From Pseudobdellovibrionaceae bacterium (GTDB lineage Bacteria; Bdellovibrionota; Bdellovibrionia; Bdellovibrionales; Bdellovibrionaceae), in contig JAEUWH010000082.1 of NCBI GenBank assembly GCA_016785955.1, positions 1 through 64,000 on the forward strand: a stretch of 64,000 nt of DNA, written 5' to 3'. The notes below the pieces were generated by a model. It was not told where the DNA came from and did no database searches. It worked only from the letters and a program-made list of their open reading frames with translations. The translations under genes and the position numbers were made by a program. Positions 1,013 to 9,993 of the stretch are shown here, piece by piece. Position 1 is the stretch's first letter. Every line of letters begins with the position of its first letter.

Positions 1013-3130
1013 TTATAATGTGCCGTCCAGCTTATAAGTAAAAACAAAGGCATCGTTGGTTTTAAGTGGGGCGATGCGAGAATAGACTTTTTGCGATGTG
1101 GTTCCAAATACCAGTGGTTCGTATACACCTTCTGGCAAATTATACAGAATAAAACCACCACCTTGCGTACCCCGTGGTGTGATTCGCCCCGAATAGTCAA
1201 AATACAAAAGATGATTTTGAATACGATCAATACCGGGAAGCTCAATTTCAAAATCTTCGTCGATCACAAAGCCAATCACCATATTTGAATTGGGGTACAC
1301 GTTCAGCTTAAGCCCAGTAAAAACTTGACTCATCCACTGCCGCGAGACCAGCGGCACATAAATATAATCAGACTTATCCACATACGTATAGTGTGCCGGA
1401 ATGTATTTTTCGGTAGGATTAGAATATAAGAAACTCCAACGCCCCAGATAGGGCAGTTGCACTGCGCCCACGCCCTTTTCAATTGTTATGCTTTCACTTT
1501 GTCCTTGAAGGTCGATTTCAGAAAACTCGGGTGATCCCGTAAAGGGTTCATAGACTTTGATGTCCACGGTTTCTGTCTTGATCGTATTTTGAATTTCGGC
1601 ATACGAGGTAATTCCCGGGCTAACGATCGTATTGATGTGACCAAAATAGCGATCTCCTCGATACGCCATTAATGTTTTTAAACTACCACCTTCAATAATC
1701 AGAGCATAGTAACCATTTTCAGAAGTCCCCGAAAGTTTAATATCTGGTAACATCAACGAATTAAAATAAATCGTTTCTATCTCGGGTTCATTTTCTATTT
1801 TTACACTCACGCCCGATACCGCTTGCCCATCGAAAGTGACTTTGCCTAAAACAATAGATAAATTAGGATCATTTAAATTCTGTTGCTTCAAATCCGAAAC
1901 AATTTGTTTCAAAGCAACACCCATTTTTTCTGGAATCATTTCGGTTGCAAAATTCTCACCCGCCAAAATAATCTGCTGCGAAGCAAAGTGGCCTTTGCTT
2001 TCAACAATCATATTGGTTGGAGAATTTCTAATCACGTTATCAAATTTAACCACACCATCTTTACCCACCGGCTTTTCAAGCTGACCTTGAAAAATAGTGG
2101 CTTTAGCTGGCTGAGCAAGTCCATTTTTATTATCGATACTATAGGAACTGTATGTGCGACCGCTGACGTCGGACTTAGCAACAATTTTAATCGTAGGTCC
2201 CTGATGCGAACCATGCTTGTTCACTACAACGTCGGACATGCGTACGATACCTTCGCCCAAGATCTGACCTTTTTTATTGATCATACGGGCCAATAGAAAT
2301 CCTTTCAGGTCGGACGGAGTGATTTCGTAAACAGATTCTAAGAAATTCATGGAGCCTTTTTCACGAAAAAACCCTTCCTCAAAACGACGAATTTCAAAAC
2401 GATCATCATTTGAGTATAAGAGACCTTTTTGAATTTCAAAAACACCGACGATACGGTTTTGGGACGATCTCGAGAGTTCGGTGGCCGTTGCTGCATATCG
2501 ATTTTTGTTTACTGCCTCCGAAGCTTTTTCATCAGAATAATTTTTTTCCGTGTTTGAAGAGCCAAATGTCTTATATGTATCTGGGCCTTTGTTAGAGCTT
2601 CCAGAAACCCAAGTTGTGGCTGCACTTTGTGTTTTTGGCTTATGACCTTGCAACCAAGACGCCTGAACCGAACCTTCTTGTATTTTTTTTCGGAAATAGG
2701 GTTTGAATTCCGCAACCCAATTTTTTTGATCGGCGTTTATCGAAACAGGTCCGCCGGCAACGTCATCAGCAAGATCGGTGTGACGGATGTAATTTTCATT
2801 AACCGCCTGGGTATTAAAATATTGAACCTCTTTTTTAATCACGATCGCATTTAATACCATCTTCTTGGATAGCGGATGAAAGTGATTAAGTGCTTCGTCA
2901 TGATTATCCGTGGACAGATTAATCACGCGCGCGGGTTCATTTTGAATACTAATGCCTACGCTTTTTTTGATATTTACGGCATCGTAGGCAACATAGGATG
3001 GATAGTTTTTATTTACGGTGATGGAAACTTTCTTACTCAAAAAAATATGCAGATGACTATCCATCTTGGAGGGATATCCAAAAACAAATGCGAACGCTAC
3101 AATTTGTAGAACGATCCGAAGTATTCTCAT
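1013..3130 (-). CDS. Large exported protein of unknown function
   Basis: A 705-residue protein whose N-terminus (MRILRIV... FAFVFG) looks like a cleavable signal peptide, so periplasmic or surface location is likely. It has no transmembrane segments after the leader. The middle contains stretches such as VLGKVTFDGQAVSGVSVKIEN that resemble carboxypeptidase-regulatory-like or Ig-like beta-sandwich domains, and the C-terminal third is rich in Tyr, Gly and Pro. No catalytic motif was seen. It is the last gene of a minus-strand run, 16 bp after a small lipoprotein gene, so the two are probably co-transcribed. It may be a surface or adhesion-type protein, but that is a guess from composition. Confidence 0.7.
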   Translation of the reverse strand: MRILRIVLQIVAFAFVFGYPSKMDSHLHIFLSKKVSITVNKNYPSYVAYDAVNIKKSVGISIQNEPARVINLSTDNHDEALNHFHPLSKKMVLNAIVIKKEVQYFNTQAVNENYIRHTDLADDVAGGPVSINADQKNWVAEFKPYFRKKIQEGSVQASWLQGHKPKTQSAATTWVSGSSNKGPDTYKTFGSSNTEKNYSDEKASEAVNKNRYAATATELSRSSQNRIVGVFEIQKGLLYSNDDRFEIRRFEEGFFREKGSMNFLESVYEITPSDLKGFLLARMINKKGQILGEGIVRMSDVVVNKHGSHQGPTIKIVAKSDVSGRTYSSYSIDNKNGLAQPAKATIFQGQLEKPVGKDGVVKFDNVIRNSPTNMIVESKGHFASQQIILAGENFATEMIPEKMGVALKQIVSDLKQQNLNDPNLSIVLGKVTFDGQAVSGVSVKIENEPEIETIYFNSLMLPDIKLSGTSENGYYALIIEGGSLKTLMAYRGDRYFGHINTIVSPGITSYAEIQNTIKTETVDIKVYEPFTGSPEFSEIDLQGQSESITIEKGVGAVQLPYLGRWSFLYSNPTEKYIPAHYTYVDKSDYIYVPLVSRQWMSQVFTGLKLNVYPNSNMVIGFVIDEDFEIELPGIDRIQNHLLYFDYSGRITPRGTQGGGFILYNLPEGVYEPLVFGTTSQKVYSRIAPLKTNDAFVFTYKLDGTL

Positions 3131-3146
3131 CGCTGTTTACAGAATC

Positions 3147-3581
3147 TTAAAACGCGTTGAAATCGTCAATGATATTGCGGTTTTCGAGACTTTTGAGGAG
3201 TTCTCTTTTCAGATCCGCTGCGATAATATTGGCCAGTCTTTCGTCGTCACCGACAGTGTCATAACTACCATCGTCGAGTTGGGCCTGCACAATGACATCA
3301 ACATGCACATCATAAGGTCGACGTTCGCCTAGTATTTTAATATGAGCAAAGCGTCGTTCTCTTGCTTTTTTCGCCGAGTCTATCACGCGACCTCGTTTGT
3401 CCATAAAACCGGTCAACACCTCTCGACCGTTCTGAGAAAGCTCCCGAGGTTCTCCGTACAACTTCACAATCGCTTTACGCGTTTCCGTAAGACTGACGTT
3501 AGAATCACTGATCATGGCCGCCGGTCCTGCACAACCCAAGACAAAAGCAGATAATAGCACTAAGAAAATTATTTTATGCAT
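3147..3581 (-). CDS. Small lipoprotein
   Basis: A 144-residue protein with a lipoprotein signal: Lys at position 3, a hydrophobic core, and the lipobox VLGC at about residues 14-17. The mature part is charged, with repeated Arg/Lys/Asp and a likely helical C-terminus. No domain was recognised. It lies 6 bp downstream of the HPPK-like gene and 16 bp upstream of the 705-residue exported protein, which suggests one transcript. A shared role with the exported protein is possible but unproven. Confidence 0.65.
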   Translation of the reverse strand: MHKIIFLVLLSAFVLGCAGPAAMISDSNVSLTETRKAIVKLYGEPRELSQNGREVLTGFMDKRGRVIDSAKKARERRFAHIKILGERRPYDVHVDVIVQAQLDDGSYDTVGDDERLANIIAADLKRELLKSLENRNIIDDFNAF

Positions 3582-3587
3582 CTTTTT

Positions 3588-4073
3588 TTATTTTAAAGAG
3601 GGTTCTTGAAGTTGATCAATATATATTTTGCCTTGAAACAGAAATTCAAAATCTGTTTTTATATTGTTGATATCTAAAGTCTTTAAATCTTCTTTTAAAA
3701 TTGGATGTGCATATTGGGGCGCCACCTCAGCACAGCAATGCAATACGAGCGGATCAAAATTAAGCAGGGGAGACGGCAGTGTCAGTTCAGGTATCCATTG
3801 AATATCATTGTTGAAAACAACGATTTCACATTTAAAGTCTGATCCCTGCAAACGGCGTTGGGCGGCTAATATATTTTCTATATCTACAGACGTCTCGACC
3901 ACAATGGCAAACGACATCTCTTCATCCAACCGAGTTGTTGAAAAATTTGTTTTTTTAAAGACAGATGATATTTTGACTATTTTAAAAAGTTGGTGATAGT
4001 CATTTAAAACTTTTACGATTCGTTGCTGTTTAGTGCTAATTTTAAATCGAAATACAAAAATGCAAAAGTTCAT
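3588..4073 (-). CDS. Degenerate HPPK (FolK)-like protein
   Basis: A 161-residue protein. Aligned by eye, it matches 6-hydroxymethyl-7,8-dihydropterin pyrophosphokinase over most of its length: ISSVFKKT against the SSxYxT strand, VVETSVDIENILAAQRRLQG against the 'LET..LL..l..IE' helix, and ELTLPSPLLNFDPLVLHCCAEVA against 'L.vPH....RgFmLwPL.EIAP'. The residues that define the enzyme look lost: the GSN loop, the two metal-binding Asp of the DLDI motif (here KCEI), the His of PH (here PS) and the conserved Arg. It may be a pseudoenzyme. It starts 9 bp after dapB, with GGGGA before the ATG. Confidence 0.55.
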   Translation of the reverse strand: MNFCIFVFRFKISTKQQRIVKVLNDYHQLFKIVKISSVFKKTNFSTTRLDEEMSFAIVVETSVDIENILAAQRRLQGSDFKCEIVVFNNDIQWIPELTLPSPLLNFDPLVLHCCAEVAPQYAHPILKEDLKTLDINNIKTDFEFLFQGKIYIDQLQEPSLK

Positions 4074-4082
4074 TCCCCGATA

Positions 4083-4781
4083 TTAAAATATATCCTTCAT
4101 AGAATAAAGACCAGGACCCTTTTTCATCAACGATAGGCCAGCCTTTAAAGCGCCTTCCGCAAAAACTTTTCGATTTAAAGCCTGGTGCTCAATAGTTATG
4201 ACCTCTTGGTCCGACATGGCCCAGATCCGATGCACCCCAAAAATACCACCACCGCGCACACTGAGGGTCTGGGGGATCGCCCGACCAATCGCTGATTCCA
4301 AATTCTCCTGCATTGTTTTGGCTGTCCCACTGGGGGCGTCTTTTTTATGCTTATGATGAAGCTCTTCAATTTGAAAATCAAAATCTTTGATCGACGAAAA
4401 CAAGCTCAGCATTTTGTTTACAAACGCCACACCGATACTCATGTTGGAGGACCATAATACTGGTGCTTGGCGAGCCACCTCTTTCAAAATATTTTTTTGC
4501 ACATCTGATATACCCGTCGTCCCCGATACAATTGGTTTTCCATATTTGGCCATACCTCGAAGTGAGACCTCAAAATTATCTGGCAACGAGAAGTCGATCC
4601 ACAATTCGACTTCTTCATTTTTTTTATCTTGCCAGCTATTTGAATTATGCAAAAAACCTTCTGGCTGTTTGGTGTTATAAAAACCTAAAAAAGGAACATG
4701 ACCTGCGTCCTTAATTGCCTGGCACAGTTCTTTTCCCATTTTTCCGGCAGCACCGACAACCCCGACGTTTAAAGGCTTCAT
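4083..4781 (-). CDS. dapB: 4-hydroxy-tetrahydrodipicolinate reductase
   Basis: DapB reduces 4-hydroxy-tetrahydrodipicolinate with NAD(P)H in the lysine/diaminopimelate pathway, which feeds peptidoglycan synthesis. The 232-residue product has the N-terminal dinucleotide-binding loop VGVVGAAGKMG, a central SGTTG motif, and the catalytic segment ELHHKHKKDAPSGTA, which carries the paired His and the Lys/Gly-Thr substrate contacts. It is a little shorter than the usual 240-270 residues. It overlaps the end of dapA by 4 bp (ATGA-type), so it is translationally coupled in a dapF-dapA-dapB order. Confidence 0.95.
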   Translation of the reverse strand: MKPLNVGVVGAAGKMGKELCQAIKDAGHVPFLGFYNTKQPEGFLHNSNSWQDKKNEEVELWIDFSLPDNFEVSLRGMAKYGKPIVSGTTGISDVQKNILKEVARQAPVLWSSNMSIGVAFVNKMLSLFSSIKDFDFQIEELHHKHKKDAPSGTAKTMQENLESAIGRAIPQTLSVRGGGIFGVHRIWAMSDQEVITIEHQALNRKVFAEGALKAGLSLMKKGPGLYSMKDIF

Positions 4782-5659
4782 AGCATTCCTAAGGATTTCA
4801 TTTCAGTTTTTAGTTTTTCAGTAGCCTCGGCCGACATTTCCACTAGGGGTAAACGCAGCTCTGCAGACTCTATGATTCCCATCAATTGCAATGCGCGCTT
4901 AACCGGAATCGGATTTGCTTCAATGAATAATAAATCAATCAATGCCCGATACTTTTTCAACAGCGCCTCGGCTTCGTCATGTTGTCCTTTTCGAGCCGCG
5001 TTTGTAATATTCACGAAAACATCGGGAATCACATGCGTGGCCACGGAAATGACCCCATGACCTTGATTTTTCAAAAATTCGGCATAAGTGCCGTCATCAC
5101 CAGATAACAAGACAAAGTTTTTATCGGTTTTCTCGATAATTTTGCGCTCGATTTCGATATTTCCGGTTGCTTCCTTGATGCCAATAATATTTTTCACAGT
5201 GGCCAAGCGGGACACCGTCTCGGGATCAAGACTGGTGATCGTGCGACCAGGTACATTGTACAAAATAACGGGAATGTCGCAAGACTCGGCCACCGCTTTA
5301 AAATGTAAATATAAACCATGCTGCGGGGGTTTGTTGTAATAGGGAACCACCACCAGCGCGGCATCCGCGCCCAATTCTTTTGCGTACCGAGTATTCTGAA
5401 TCGTTTTCTCAGTCGAATTGGAACCCGTTCCTAAAATCAACGGCACATTACCCATTGTCCAATTTTTTACTTTTTTAAAAATTTCGGCAACTTCGTCATC
5501 ACCTAAATTGGGCGATTCTGCGGTCGTACCATTGACAACGAATCCTTCAATTTTTCCCGTTAGTTGCTGCTTTACTAATTTTTCCAAACTAATAAAATCA
5601 ACCTTCTGATTTTTGAATGGGGTGATCAATGCCGTAAATACACCTTTAAATTTTGACAT
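4778..5659 (-). CDS. dapA: 4-hydroxy-tetrahydrodipicolinate synthase
   Basis: DapA condenses pyruvate with aspartate semialdehyde, the first committed step to diaminopimelate and lysine. The 293-residue TIM-barrel protein has the GTTAESPNL loop (the first Thr is catalytic), the YNVPGRT segment with the active-site Tyr and the Arg, and the Schiff-base Lys in GIKEATG. Length is normal. A clear AAGGAG precedes the ATG. It lies 2 bp after dapF and overlaps dapB by 4 bp, in one operon. Confidence 0.96.
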   Translation of the reverse strand: MSKFKGVFTALITPFKNQKVDFISLEKLVKQQLTGKIEGFVVNGTTAESPNLGDDEVAEIFKKVKNWTMGNVPLILGTGSNSTEKTIQNTRYAKELGADAALVVVPYYNKPPQHGLYLHFKAVAESCDIPVILYNVPGRTITSLDPETVSRLATVKNIIGIKEATGNIEIERKIIEKTDKNFVLLSGDDGTYAEFLKNQGHGVISVATHVIPDVFVNITNAARKGQHDEAEALLKKYRALIDLLFIEANPIPVKRALQLMGIIESAELRLPLVEMSAEATEKLKTEMKSLGML

Positions 5660-5661
5660 GT

Positions 5662-6489
5662 TTACTCCTTAAACTCGGTAGTGACTTGGCCTATGTAATC
5701 CGCCGAACCGATTAAAGTTGGGGTTTTACCATTAAAATCAACTTGTAATTGTCCACCCGGCATAACGACCGTTACATTTTTTTGCGCCAGCTTATCACAA
5801 ACATACAATGCCGCCGCGGTCGCTCCGGTGCCACATGCCTGAGTAAAATCATCAACGCCGCGCTCGAATGAGATCGCTTTGGTCGGCGCCTGTTTCCCAG
5901 GCTGAATCAACGTTACATTCGTGCCTTTTACAAAAAATTTATGCTGTCGCAAAAACATCCACAGAGATTTCAATTTCAAGGCAGACTCCCAATCGTTGAC
6001 GACAATCACCAGATGAGGAACTCCAGTATCCACAAAATACGCGCTCGTAGACGCCACTTTTTTAAAATCTTCAAAATCGTTCGCTGACTTAAAAAAAGCT
6101 GTTGTTAATTCAAGATTGAGCTTTTGCCTAGGCTCGCTCATTTGCACATGAAAAAAATCATTCTTAGATTCTGATGTGATTGTCCCGGCACCTGTTTGTA
6201 TGGAGATTTTTGTCATGGCCGAAGAAATTTTCTTCAAAACGAATGCGTGCGCACAGCGAGTCGCATTGCCACACATTTCCGCACCAGATCCATCGGAATT
6301 AAAAAAATGCCATTTAAATTCACCCGGCGCCAACGATTCTAAAAACACAGCACCATCAGCAAAAAACCCTTCATACGGATCACAAATCTTTTTTGTCAGC
6401 GACCCCAGCTGGTCTGTGGATAAATTTAATTTTTCACGTATTAAAAAAATATTTTTCGCACCCGAAAATTTCTCAAAATCAATTTTCAT
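5662..6489 (-). CDS. dapF: Diaminopimelate epimerase
   Basis: DapF converts LL- to meso-diaminopimelate using two cysteines as acid and base. The 275-residue product shows both: MCGNATRCAHAF near residue 77 and QACGTGATAAAL near residue 218. It also has the conserved duplicated fold landmarks DGAVFLE and FERGVDDF. Its start overlaps the end of the upstream LptM-like gene by 11 bp, and it is followed after 2 bp by dapA, so the pathway genes are tightly coupled. Confidence 0.95.
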   Translation of the reverse strand: MKIDFEKFSGAKNIFLIREKLNLSTDQLGSLTKKICDPYEGFFADGAVFLESLAPGEFKWHFFNSDGSGAEMCGNATRCAHAFVLKKISSAMTKISIQTGAGTITSESKNDFFHVQMSEPRQKLNLELTTAFFKSANDFEDFKKVASTSAYFVDTGVPHLVIVVNDWESALKLKSLWMFLRQHKFFVKGTNVTLIQPGKQAPTKAISFERGVDDFTQACGTGATAAALYVCDKLAQKNVTVVMPGGQLQVDFNGKTPTLIGSADYIGQVTTEFKE

Positions 6490-6810: not shown

Positions 6811-7642
6811 AATTACCTGCGCGAAATTTAAAATAGTGGTCCAATGCTGAAGAGCAAAAATACAGATCATAGTAATAGCGTCTATAAAAATGTTCTGGAA
6901 AGGGACCACAAATTGGCTCGTCCTCGCTCTTTACTTTACCCTCAAGCCGCTTTTCCCAATATGCTATTTGAGGATTTTGAGCATCGACATTTTTTATGAG
7001 GGCAAGTGCCGCAAAAGCCTTTTCTTTATTTCCCGAAGAAAATTTCTCTAAAAAATCAACATATGCATTAATAATTGGGTAATTTGGTAGTTGAAGATCC
7101 TTCAAGCGAGTCTTCGACTGAGTAAAGTCTTTAGACTCCACATTGACATTGGCTAGACTTAAAAAGATGGAAGCGAACACAACATTCTTGTCAAATGGGT
7201 TCTTAGCTCGAAATTCTTCTAAGGCTTCCTTCGCTTTATCAACGTTTTTTTTATTCAGATGATTTCGCACTATTTCAATCATGATCAGCGTGTTGTCCGG
7301 TTCAATTTTTTGAGCCCGCTCAACAGCCGAAATTGATTTTGAAACATCCGTCTTCTTAAAGTTAATGCTCGACTCATACTCTTGCTGTGCTTTATCGAAC
7401 AGAAATAGACTACCTAAGTCTTTCAATATATTTCTAATTTCAATTGCAGCCGACTTGTTTTTCTCTGCCAGCTGAGCTTTAAATAGTATACGAATAGCCT
7501 GGTCTCGATCTTTTTGCAGAATAAGATTCTGAGCAATTTCAATAATTTCTTTGGACTGCGCAGCCTCTTCCTTTTTAGTCACGGCTATCGAAGTGCAGAA
7601 AAATACATTTAAAGAAATTAGAATACTAAATAGTTTATTCAT
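6809..7642 (-). CDS. Exported TPR-like protein
   Basis: A 277-residue protein with an N-terminal hydrophobic leader (MNKLFSILISLNVFF) and then about 180 residues of amphipathic helices with tetratricopeptide-like spacing. Examples are DQAIRILFKAQLAE, SISAVERAQKIEPDNTLIMIEIV and KAKEALEEFRAKNPFDKNVVFASIFL. The C-terminal 40 residues are aromatic with two Cys and look separate. Such proteins usually act as periplasmic scaffolds. Its ATG overlaps the ftsK stop by 1 bp, so it is the second gene of an ftsK transcript. Confidence 0.65.
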   Translation of the reverse strand: MNKLFSILISLNVFFCTSIAVTKKEEAAQSKEIIEIAQNLILQKDRDQAIRILFKAQLAEKNKSAAIEIRNILKDLGSLFLFDKAQQEYESSINFKKTDVSKSISAVERAQKIEPDNTLIMIEIVRNHLNKKNVDKAKEALEEFRAKNPFDKNVVFASIFLSLANVNVESKDFTQSKTRLKDLQLPNYPIINAYVDFLEKFSSGNKEKAFAALALIKNVDAQNPQIAYWEKRLEGKVKSEDEPICGPFPEHFYRRYYYDLYFCSSALDHYFKFRAGN

Positions 7643-9993
7643 TATTCGGGCATTGCATTGATTAGTACCGATCTTGGCTTGCTTCCATTGGCCGGTCCAA
7701 CAACACCCTCCCTTTCAAATGTTTCAATAATTCGGGCGGCACGTGGGTAGCCTAATCTAAAGCGACGTTGAATCAGCGATGCACTGACTTCTTTTTGTTC
7801 GGCCGCCCATGCAAGAATTTGATCATACATTTCGTCATAGTCTTCATCTCCTCCGCCCCCGCCACCAAATTCGTCAGCACCAGAGGTGCCATCGCCAAAA
7901 CCTTCAAGCGCTTTTACCGCAATAGGATCAAATTCGGGCTCAGCTTGATTAGCCCAATGACTGGCCAGTCCGTTAATTTCTTTTTCACTCAGGTACGGAC
8001 CATGATGGCGCATCGGTTTCGATACGCCGGGAGCTAAAAACAACATGTCACCATTGGGCAGTAAGCGCTCGGCACCGCCCTCATCTAGGATAATTCTAGA
8101 GTCCATTTTAGCTGCGACTTTTAAACCTACACGCCCTGGAATATTTGTCTTAATTAATCCCGTTACCACTTCTTTACGTGGAGACTGCATGGCCAATATC
8201 AGATGAATACCACACGCGCGCGCCATTTGCGCCAGTCGAACAACCCCTTGTTCCACGTTTTGTTTATCAACAGCCATGAGATCGCCAAACTCTTCAACCA
8301 CAATTACAATGTAGGGAAGGGGTTGATAGTAATATTGCTCTAGTTTCATCACGCCTTGAGTTTCATACTCTTGATTTATTTTTTCATGCTCCGCAACTTT
8401 GTCTGCTGTCATGGCCGCCACTGTTTCGTTAAAACTTTCCAGACCACGGGCGCCAAATTTACTCATGGATTTATATCGTTTTTCCATCTCACGAATGGCC
8501 CACTTTAATGCCGACACTGCTTTTTTAGGGTCTGTTACCGGGGGCATGATCAGATGGGGCACTTTAGAAAATGCAGCCAAATCAACTTGCTTCGGATCTA
8601 CCAAAATCAGCCGCAGTGTCTTTGGAGAATGACGAAACAATAGACCACTGATGATCGAGGTAATAAGTACCGATTTACCAGAGCCCGTAGTGCCGGCCAC
8701 CATCAAATGAGGCATCTTGCGAAGATCAACAATTTTAGGGTCACCATTTACCTGACGTCCCAAGGCGATGGGAAGTTTTAAATCCTCGCTCCAAAAGTCG
8801 TCTTCTGCAAGAAGATCTTTATAGTATACGGTTTCACGTTTTGAATTAGAGGTTTCAATACCCACGACATCGCGACCAGGAATCGGGGCAATGACACGCA
8901 AGGATTCACTAGAAAGAGCCAACGCCAGGTCATCTTGAAGTTCAGTAATTTTACTTAGTTTTACATCTGCATTAGGTTTAAACTCAAACATTGTAACTAA
9001 CGGCCCCGGCTTGGCATCCGTGATTGTCCCTTCCACCGAAAAGTTCTTCAGTTTATCTGTCAAGATCTCTGCTTTTTTACGAATTTCTTTTTCATCAATT
9101 TTTACTCGCGAAAGAGGCGGATCTTCTAAAAGATTCAGCTTGGGCATATCCCAATTTTCGATTTTTTTAGGCGGTTTAGCTTTTAATATAACTTTGCGTT
9201 TAGGCATGTGATCTAGTTCATTTTTAGCAGGAATCGTCGTCTCGGACTCTGGCTCTTCTTCAAAGAAATTCAATTGCGTGAGTCTAGAAATTTCATCTGA
9301 TTTTACCTTCCAATCCTTCAGATTTTCGACCTCTGGCGCAACGTCTACCGGCTTCGATGACTTTTCCGATTTGGCACGCTTTTCTTTTGCACGCTCGGCA
9401 ATCACGGGCCAAGCCAACCATTTTTTAAGTGTGATAAAAACACCTACAAATCCAGAGGATTGGTTTTTTGCCATGACTCCCCACTGCTGCAAGCTTTTTT
9501 CAGTATAGAACAGAACCAAGATAATTAAGTTACTCCAAAGAAATATTTGCAAACCAGCAAAATTCAATAGTTTGAATAGGATATTAGATACCGATAGCCC
9601 AATAATTCCCGAAATGGAAATTTCGTGACCAAAAAGTTTCGCCTGCGGAAAATAGAAAGCGGTCAACGCCGACACATTCACGATAAGTAATGTTAGCCAA
9701 ACGACATTTAAACTGCGCAGTTTAACATCCTGCCCACGAAGCGTATTGAGTCCCAGCTTTAGGAACGCAAAGGCGACAAGCCATGCACTGATCCCAAGGC
9801 CCTGATAAAACAAGTCACTCAAGAACGAGCCAAGCCATCCACAATAGTTAGTTGGGCTAAGTTTGCTGCCCATAGAATTAAATGACGGGTCTTTAGGATT
9901 ATAACTAAATAACGCCAAGGCTATAAAGACGGAAATACCGATAAACAAAATAGCCCGAATATCTTTTTGAAATTTTTTGAATAACGCCTGCAT
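7642..9993 (-). CDS. ftsK: DNA translocase FtsK/SpoIIIE family
   Basis: A septal DNA pump that clears and aligns chromosome termini during division. The 783-residue protein has four to five membrane helices in the first 170 residues, a charged linker of about 120 residues, then the motor. The motor carries Walker A at 433-441 (AGTTGSGKS) and a Walker B-like IVIVVEEFGDLM, slightly altered from the usual VIDELADLM. The C-terminal gamma winged helix (LIQRRFRLGYPRAARIIETFE) reads polar DNA motifs. A Gly-rich stretch (GGGGGGD) precedes the gamma domain. It is the first gene of the transcript with the TPR gene. Confidence 0.95.
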   Translation of the reverse strand: MQALFKKFQKDIRAILFIGISVFIALALFSYNPKDPSFNSMGSKLSPTNYCGWLGSFLSDLFYQGLGISAWLVAFAFLKLGLNTLRGQDVKLRSLNVVWLTLLIVNVSALTAFYFPQAKLFGHEISISGIIGLSVSNILFKLLNFAGLQIFLWSNLIILVLFYTEKSLQQWGVMAKNQSSGFVGVFITLKKWLAWPVIAERAKEKRAKSEKSSKPVDVAPEVENLKDWKVKSDEISRLTQLNFFEEEPESETTIPAKNELDHMPKRKVILKAKPPKKIENWDMPKLNLLEDPPLSRVKIDEKEIRKKAEILTDKLKNFSVEGTITDAKPGPLVTMFEFKPNADVKLSKITELQDDLALALSSESLRVIAPIPGRDVVGIETSNSKRETVYYKDLLAEDDFWSEDLKLPIALGRQVNGDPKIVDLRKMPHLMVAGTTGSGKSVLITSIISGLLFRHSPKTLRLILVDPKQVDLAAFSKVPHLIMPPVTDPKKAVSALKWAIREMEKRYKSMSKFGARGLESFNETVAAMTADKVAEHEKINQEYETQGVMKLEQYYYQPLPYIVIVVEEFGDLMAVDKQNVEQGVVRLAQMARACGIHLILAMQSPRKEVVTGLIKTNIPGRVGLKVAAKMDSRIILDEGGAERLLPNGDMLFLAPGVSKPMRHHGPYLSEKEINGLASHWANQAEPEFDPIAVKALEGFGDGTSGADEFGGGGGGDEDYDEMYDQILAWAAEQKEVSASLIQRRFRLGYPRAARIIETFEREGVVGPANGSKPRSVLINAMPE

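Follow-up and report, generated by a model that had tools for sequence, protein, structure and literature searches.

The enzyme 6-hydroxymethyl-7,8-dihydropterin pyrophosphokinase (HPPK, FolK) is a well-studied drug target. The window analysed here, a stretch of 64,000 nucleotides from a Pseudobdellovibrionaceae bacterium, raises the question of what a protein that resembles HPPK and lacks its active site might do among genes of the diaminopimelate (DAP)/lysine pathway. A preliminary description of the locus had aligned an open reading frame (ORF) with FolK by eye, had pointed to the loss of its catalytic residues and had suggested a new binding or regulatory role. The ORF codes for 161 amino acids in an open frame, and its product is termed HPPKL (pseudo-HPPK) below. 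The genome is represented by a 4.34-Mb assembly (99.88% complete), and most of the named relatives that sequence comparison brings up are MAGs of Bdellovibrio or Bdellovibrionales. The features of the window that matter for the argument are the following:

1013..3130, minus strand: BIG705, an exported-looking protein of 705 amino acids, recognized by class-wide synteny
3147..3581, minus strand: LIPO144, a lipoprotein-like ORF of 144 amino acids directly downstream of HPPKL, recognized by class-wide synteny
3588..4073, minus strand: HPPKL (pseudo-HPPK), from its translation, predicted fold, profile matches and residue table
4083..4781, minus strand: dapB, 4-hydroxy-tetrahydrodipicolinate reductase (TIGR00036, 154.3 bits against a cut-off of 122; PF05173 and PF01113)
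4778..5659, minus strand: dapA, dihydrodipicolinate synthase (PF00701, E 6e-88)
5662..6489, minus strand: dapF, diaminopimelate epimerase (TIGR00652, E 1.5e-54)
7642..9993, minus strand: ftsK (PF01580, PF13491, PF17854, PF09397), the upstream limit of the conserved block

The gene order in the window is dapF-dapA-dapB-HPPKL-LIPO144-BIG705. The genes dapA and dapB overlap by 4 nt, and dapB ends at 4083, leaving a gap of 9 nt, so that HPPKL indeed lies directly behind it; both genes occupy the same reading frame, with TAA and 9 nt between them. In several genomes HPPKL overlaps dapB. At one further locus (L031) the two genes likewise stand in one frame, and there the gap is absent. The envelope proteins expected downstream correspond to the two exported-looking ORFs LIPO144 and BIG705, both of which are without Pfam or NCBIfam match. 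The window contains no Rfam families or tRNAs, and phage records yielded no HPPKL match. Promoter-like sites (26, versus 19.4 in shuffles, sd 5.0) and terminator-like sites (9, versus 9.2 in shuffles) were not used as evidence.

The linkage to dapB extends far beyond the window. A family profile matches 91 of the 143 genomes of the class, and in 80 of them the matching gene follows immediately on dapB and shares its strand, with 2-109 nt between the profile ends; the other 11 genomes match only within ORFs of 430-461 amino acids, the size of FolK-FolP fusions. The gene belongs to a conserved block, ftsK-TPR-dapF-dapA-dapB-HPPKL-(tal)-LIPO144-BIG705. Most genera carry a transaldolase-like gene between HPPKL and the lipoprotein gene, which is missing at that position in the genus of the window (window 3581-3588; L098, L099). 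Where this gene parts HPPKL from the downstream genes, HPPKL still adjoins dapB. The names “transaldolase”, “dapL” and “MetH” are assignments based on the size of the ORF or on its N-terminal sequence and do not derive from family matches. HPPKL is dispensable, since 54 of the 134 class genomes in which dapB was found do not have it beside dapB, and it can be cleanly absent: among 20 such loci that were inspected, dapB is followed by the transaldolase-like gene in 17 and by an unrelated ORF of 187 amino acids in one, while two were uncalled. The block is still intact where HPPKL is absent.

Taken singly, the window protein gives only a marginal HPPK signal. A phmmer search of the PDB returned 2cg8 at E 0.0017 and the S. 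aureus HPPK at E 0.29, and the NCBIfam model PRK10239 (folK) matched at E 0.031. In Pfam, PF01288 was absent at E ≤ 1, and hence below its gathering score, and the sole match was GshA (PF08886; 16.6 bits, E 0.0031), which falls below the gathering score of 25 and occurs in only 1 of 26 family members; homology to GshA was rejected on these grounds. The signal becomes strong at the level of the family. With a profile built on a 26-member HPPKL alignment, hmmsearch of the PDB reached a best E of 9.4e-12, and all 23 matches were HPPK or HPPK-containing chains. Alignment of the family with 11 true HPPKs of the phylum by hhalign gave a probability of 97.8 (E 1.1e-12). An AF2 model from a nine-sequence input (pLDDT 87.8, pTM 0.84) retrieved only HPPK or HPPK-containing structures among the best 50 Foldseek rows (best E 4.8e-11), and VIA-align superimposed it on S. 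aureus HPPK 4cyu_B with a Z of 19.6 over 141 residues at 1.7 Å and on E. coli HPPK 1hka with a Z of 17.8. Hence, HPPKL is a real HPPK homologue, the alignment made by eye was right, and a chance resemblance is rejected by Foldseek, VIA-align, the PDB hmmsearch and hhalign alike.

HPPKL shares with HPPK (PF01288, TIGR01498; 4cyu, 1hka) its fold and length, the SS-x-Y strand, the LTLPxP strand and the helix with a conserved Glu. It differs in the absence of the GSN loop, the metal-binding Asp residues, the PH histidine, Arg121, the loop-3 arginines and, for the window protein, a PF01288 match, as well as by a C-terminal FxxQG, the linkage to dapB and a genome without stand-alone FolP. Seven of the 26 family members match PF01288 and eight match PRK14092 at E ≤ 0.01, and some may for this reason carry a folK annotation; a model dedicated to the HPPKL family was found neither in Pfam nor in NCBIfam.

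The loss of the active site was followed in a 73-protein alignment. It covers 52 degenerate carriers out of a total of 78, which is the 80 dapB-linked cases without the two intermediates. The residue table and the tree leave out L108 and L161, which come from the genomes already represented by L025 and L029, as well as L109, a duplicate of L147, and L110, whose N-terminus was truncated by start choice; alignment A1 is without L023, L026, L028 and L030, of which L023 and L030 re-enter as L112 and L106. Alignment columns bear the residue numbers of E. coli HPPK. The PDB titles of the Foldseek matches name HPPK mutants N10A, N55A, R82A, R92A, D95A, D97A, H115A and F123A. In the window protein GSN is replaced by RFK, the metal residue D95 by Lys and D97, conservatively, by Glu; of the loop-3 arginines, R82 falls in a gap and R92 is Ser; the PH histidine H115 is Ser and the conserved R121 is Asp; and the pterin contacts N55 and F123 are Ser and Leu, respectively. 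It thus retains none of G8, N10, N55, R82, R92, D95, D97, H115, R121 and F123, whereas each of the 19 true HPPKs from the phylum has all of them. Across the 52 HPPKL proteins, G8 and D97 are retained in none, N55 in one, D95 in two and N10 and F123 in three each; the decay is uneven, with R121 kept in 11 and H115 in 29. The alignment therefore agrees with the losses described beforehand. A frameshift or wrong frame is rejected, as the reading frame is open and the losses recur in homologues of other genomes.

The dead site is not accompanied by relaxed constraint. For the pair L002-L004 the dN/dS ratio is 0.023 in HPPKL and 0.035 in dapB, and for L002-L003 it is 0.024 and 0.029, at dS values that are large (3.4 and 3.1); in pairs that include the window sequence dS is saturated, and pN/pS amounts to 0.20-0.23. 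HPPKL is under strong purifying selection, like dapB, which argues for a functional protein. Pseudoenzymes are catalytically dead homologues that serve as scaffolds or allosteric regulators, and HPPKL resembles them in its retained fold, lost catalytic residues and purifying selection. As judged from its sequences, by clade-wide loss of catalytic residues together with purifying selection, HPPKL is a pseudoenzyme. The notion of a folate-enzyme fold kept without its active site is consequently borne out by the predicted structure, the site loss in 52 members and the selection data.

The window genome contains no PF01288 match, and hence no other HPPK or folK elsewhere; neither a stand-alone FolP nor FolB was found in it, and its single PF00809 match lies in a 1250-aa ORF of MetH size. 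As a point of reference, among 20 chosen out-of-class genomes with a true HPPK, PF00809 occurs in 19, most of them with one of FolP size. HPPKL is present in 38 of 59 relatives (eight also with a FolK-FolP fusion, 30 without FolK), while five have the fusion only and 16 have neither. Most HPPKL carriers are apparently unable to make folate, as far as gene content tells. The fusions, which belong to the same order and are present in 13 of the 59 relatives, 12 of which also have FolB, have an HPPK domain in common with HPPKL; unlike HPPKL, they possess the HPPK motifs, form one ORF with DHPS and are located elsewhere in the genome. Since they are scattered over families, they look like a pathway regained by transfer. 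In the fusion loci L039-L051, FolB mostly lies nearby on the same contig, and the loci are scattered across families.

The origin of HPPKL is illuminated by two genomes of another order of the class (G140 and G142), which code for a motif-bearing HPPK directly behind dapB. These proteins are like HPPKL in their operon slot, their full-length homology and an LLDF-type C-terminal tail, as seen in many HPPKL members; unlike HPPKL, they have the GSN loop, both Asp residues, the His, the Arg and the pterin residues (N55, D95, D97, H115, R121 and F123 are all present). Of the residues checked, only R82 and R92 of loop 3 are lost, and PF01288 matches with 95.5 and 101.8 bits. The form is likely an intermediate between the enzyme and the dead HPPKL. 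In a tree, which leaves out the FolK-FolP row of G007, the branch separating the 52 HPPKL rows receives an SH-aLRT of 98 (quick method), and the branch that sets HPPKL plus the two intermediates apart from all other HPPKs an SH-aLRT of 89. A tree uniting HPPKL with the FolK-FolP fusions was not rejected by the AU test (p 0.297), and in-place descent therefore rests mainly on synteny, along with the SH-aLRT 89 branch. From these data we infer, with good support, that HPPKL is the in-slot descendant of a dap-linked, motif-bearing folK.

Outside the class, a true HPPK is linked to dap genes in 3 of 36 genomes (G153, G160, G167), in two of which (G153, G160) an aminotransferase-like, dapL-looking ORF lies between HPPK and the dap genes; an ancestral dap-folK operon is possible. 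Stand-alone FolP or FolB was not found in the motif-bearing G140, G142 and G153 (drafts, 92-97% complete). That G140 and G142 keep the motifs without FolP or FolB suggests that the folate pathway was lost before the active site. In G140, G142 and G153 (loci L122, L114, L124) the dap cluster thus contains an orphan HPPK that retains its metal site.

Given constraint, a dead site and adjacency to or overlap with dapB, the most plausible role for HPPKL is that of a non-catalytic partner or regulator. With moderate confidence, we regard it as an HPPK pseudoenzyme that degenerated in place and was repurposed for such a role in the DAP/lysine operon. The starting state would have been a motif-bearing folK behind dapB, as in G140 and G142; folate synthesis would then have been lost, the HPPK-derived protein retained and its active site allowed to decay, while a family-specific C-terminal signature, H123-P124 ... 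F144-x-x-Q147-G148, became fixed. The resulting protein may have a purely non-catalytic function, binding as a subunit to the DAP/lysine enzymes encoded with it, which make peptidoglycan precursors, or regulating them. The DAP/lysine pathway is the first place to look, because HPPKL shares an operon-like block with dapF, dapA and dapB; DapB would be the first candidate partner, and the face formed by H123, F144 and Q147 a candidate contact surface. That HPPKL has a protein-binding or regulatory role in this pathway we infer with weaker support than its descent. A further-reaching reading, offered tentatively, is that in the Bdellovibrio lineage a folate enzyme became, within its slot, a non-catalytic regulator dedicated to DAP/lysine synthesis, and that it outlived folate synthesis in most of the examined carriers.

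The retained fold could also serve ligand sensing, HPPKL being a sensor of pterin, folate or a nucleotide (e.g., folate of the prey) that reports to the DAP operon. H115 persists in 29 of 52 proteins, and most carriers among the relatives are without FolK, so folate is probably acquired. Yet, N55 is kept in only 1, F123 in 3 and G8 in 0 of 52, the metal Asp residues are gone, and the window protein is without any of the listed contacts; a sensor of this kind is unlikely. Pterin binding or ligand sensing appears less likely than protein binding for HPPKL, since the alignment indicates loss of the pterin contacts (N55, F123, loop 2) and the metal residues.

A protein-binding HPPKL might address another product of the block (LIPO144, BIG705, the transaldolase or FtsK) and not DapB or DapA. 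This would fit the conservation of the whole block from ftsK to BIG705 and the negative outcome of the DapB partner test, in which a fused DapB-HPPKL chain was modelled by AF2 from a shallow, mostly unpaired alignment: both domains were well predicted, the pTM was 0.61, near that of two independent domains, and an interface was unsupported, the test being a weak one. A comparison of carriers and non-carriers that ignored kinship, and was left unused, yielded one differential column among 323 in DapB (shuffle mean 0.005), one in dapF and none in dapA or LIPO144. However, HPPKL stays by dapB even when the transaldolase gene intervenes, and the block holds together without HPPKL, which leaves another block protein an improbable partner.

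HPPKL might, moreover, have become a new enzyme, performing a different chemistry by means of H123, E116, Q147 and S36. Four residues, S36, P100, H123 and F144, are invariant in all 52 HPPKL proteins, and Q147 (48/52) and E116 (46/52) come close. However, ordinary HPPKs conserve S36 and E116 to about the same degree, probably for structural reasons; S36 and P100 are present in all 19 true HPPKs and probably structural for this reason. A new conserved acidic metal site was not seen in the alignment, and a new activity is doubtful indeed. His also occupies the H123 column in both intermediates and in 3 of the 19 true HPPKs, while Q147 is new: a C-terminal F/Y-x-x-Q-[GASPN] is found in 48 of 52 HPPKL proteins, versus neither intermediate and 2 of 19 true HPPKs.

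It is highly improbable that HPPKL continues to serve the organism as its folate HPPK in highly diverged form, as the real homology and fold and the lack of a second HPPK in the window genome would allow, for the window protein has lost every metal, ATP and pterin residue examined, stand-alone FolP and FolB are absent as well, and eight relatives carry HPPKL alongside a FolK-FolP fusion; a functional HPPK was rejected on account of the residue losses and the two missing enzymes. Hardly more credible is a functionless, decaying relic held by its operon position, in spite of its clean absence from many genomes (in 17 of 20 loci the transaldolase gene comes right after dapB), given a dN/dS of about 0.02, as low as in dapB, and full-length ORFs with invariant residues throughout the class.

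HPPK itself is well known; what is new here, the data suggest, is a pseudoenzyme branch with unusual graded intermediates, and no report of an HPPK pseudoenzyme or a dapB-linked folK in this group was found in the open-licence part of the PMC literature. The preferred reading, a pseudoenzyme repurposed in place, has consequences beyond the locus. Genes for HPPKL should not be annotated as folK. The graded series, which runs from an intact enzyme through a motif-bearing form devoid of the loop-3 arginines to a dead form that shares the operon slot of the motif-bearing one, would allow the conversion of an enzyme into a non-enzyme to be tested. In Bdellovibrio-like predators, HPPKL also draws attention to a gene of the DAP/cell-wall operon that has gone unstudied.
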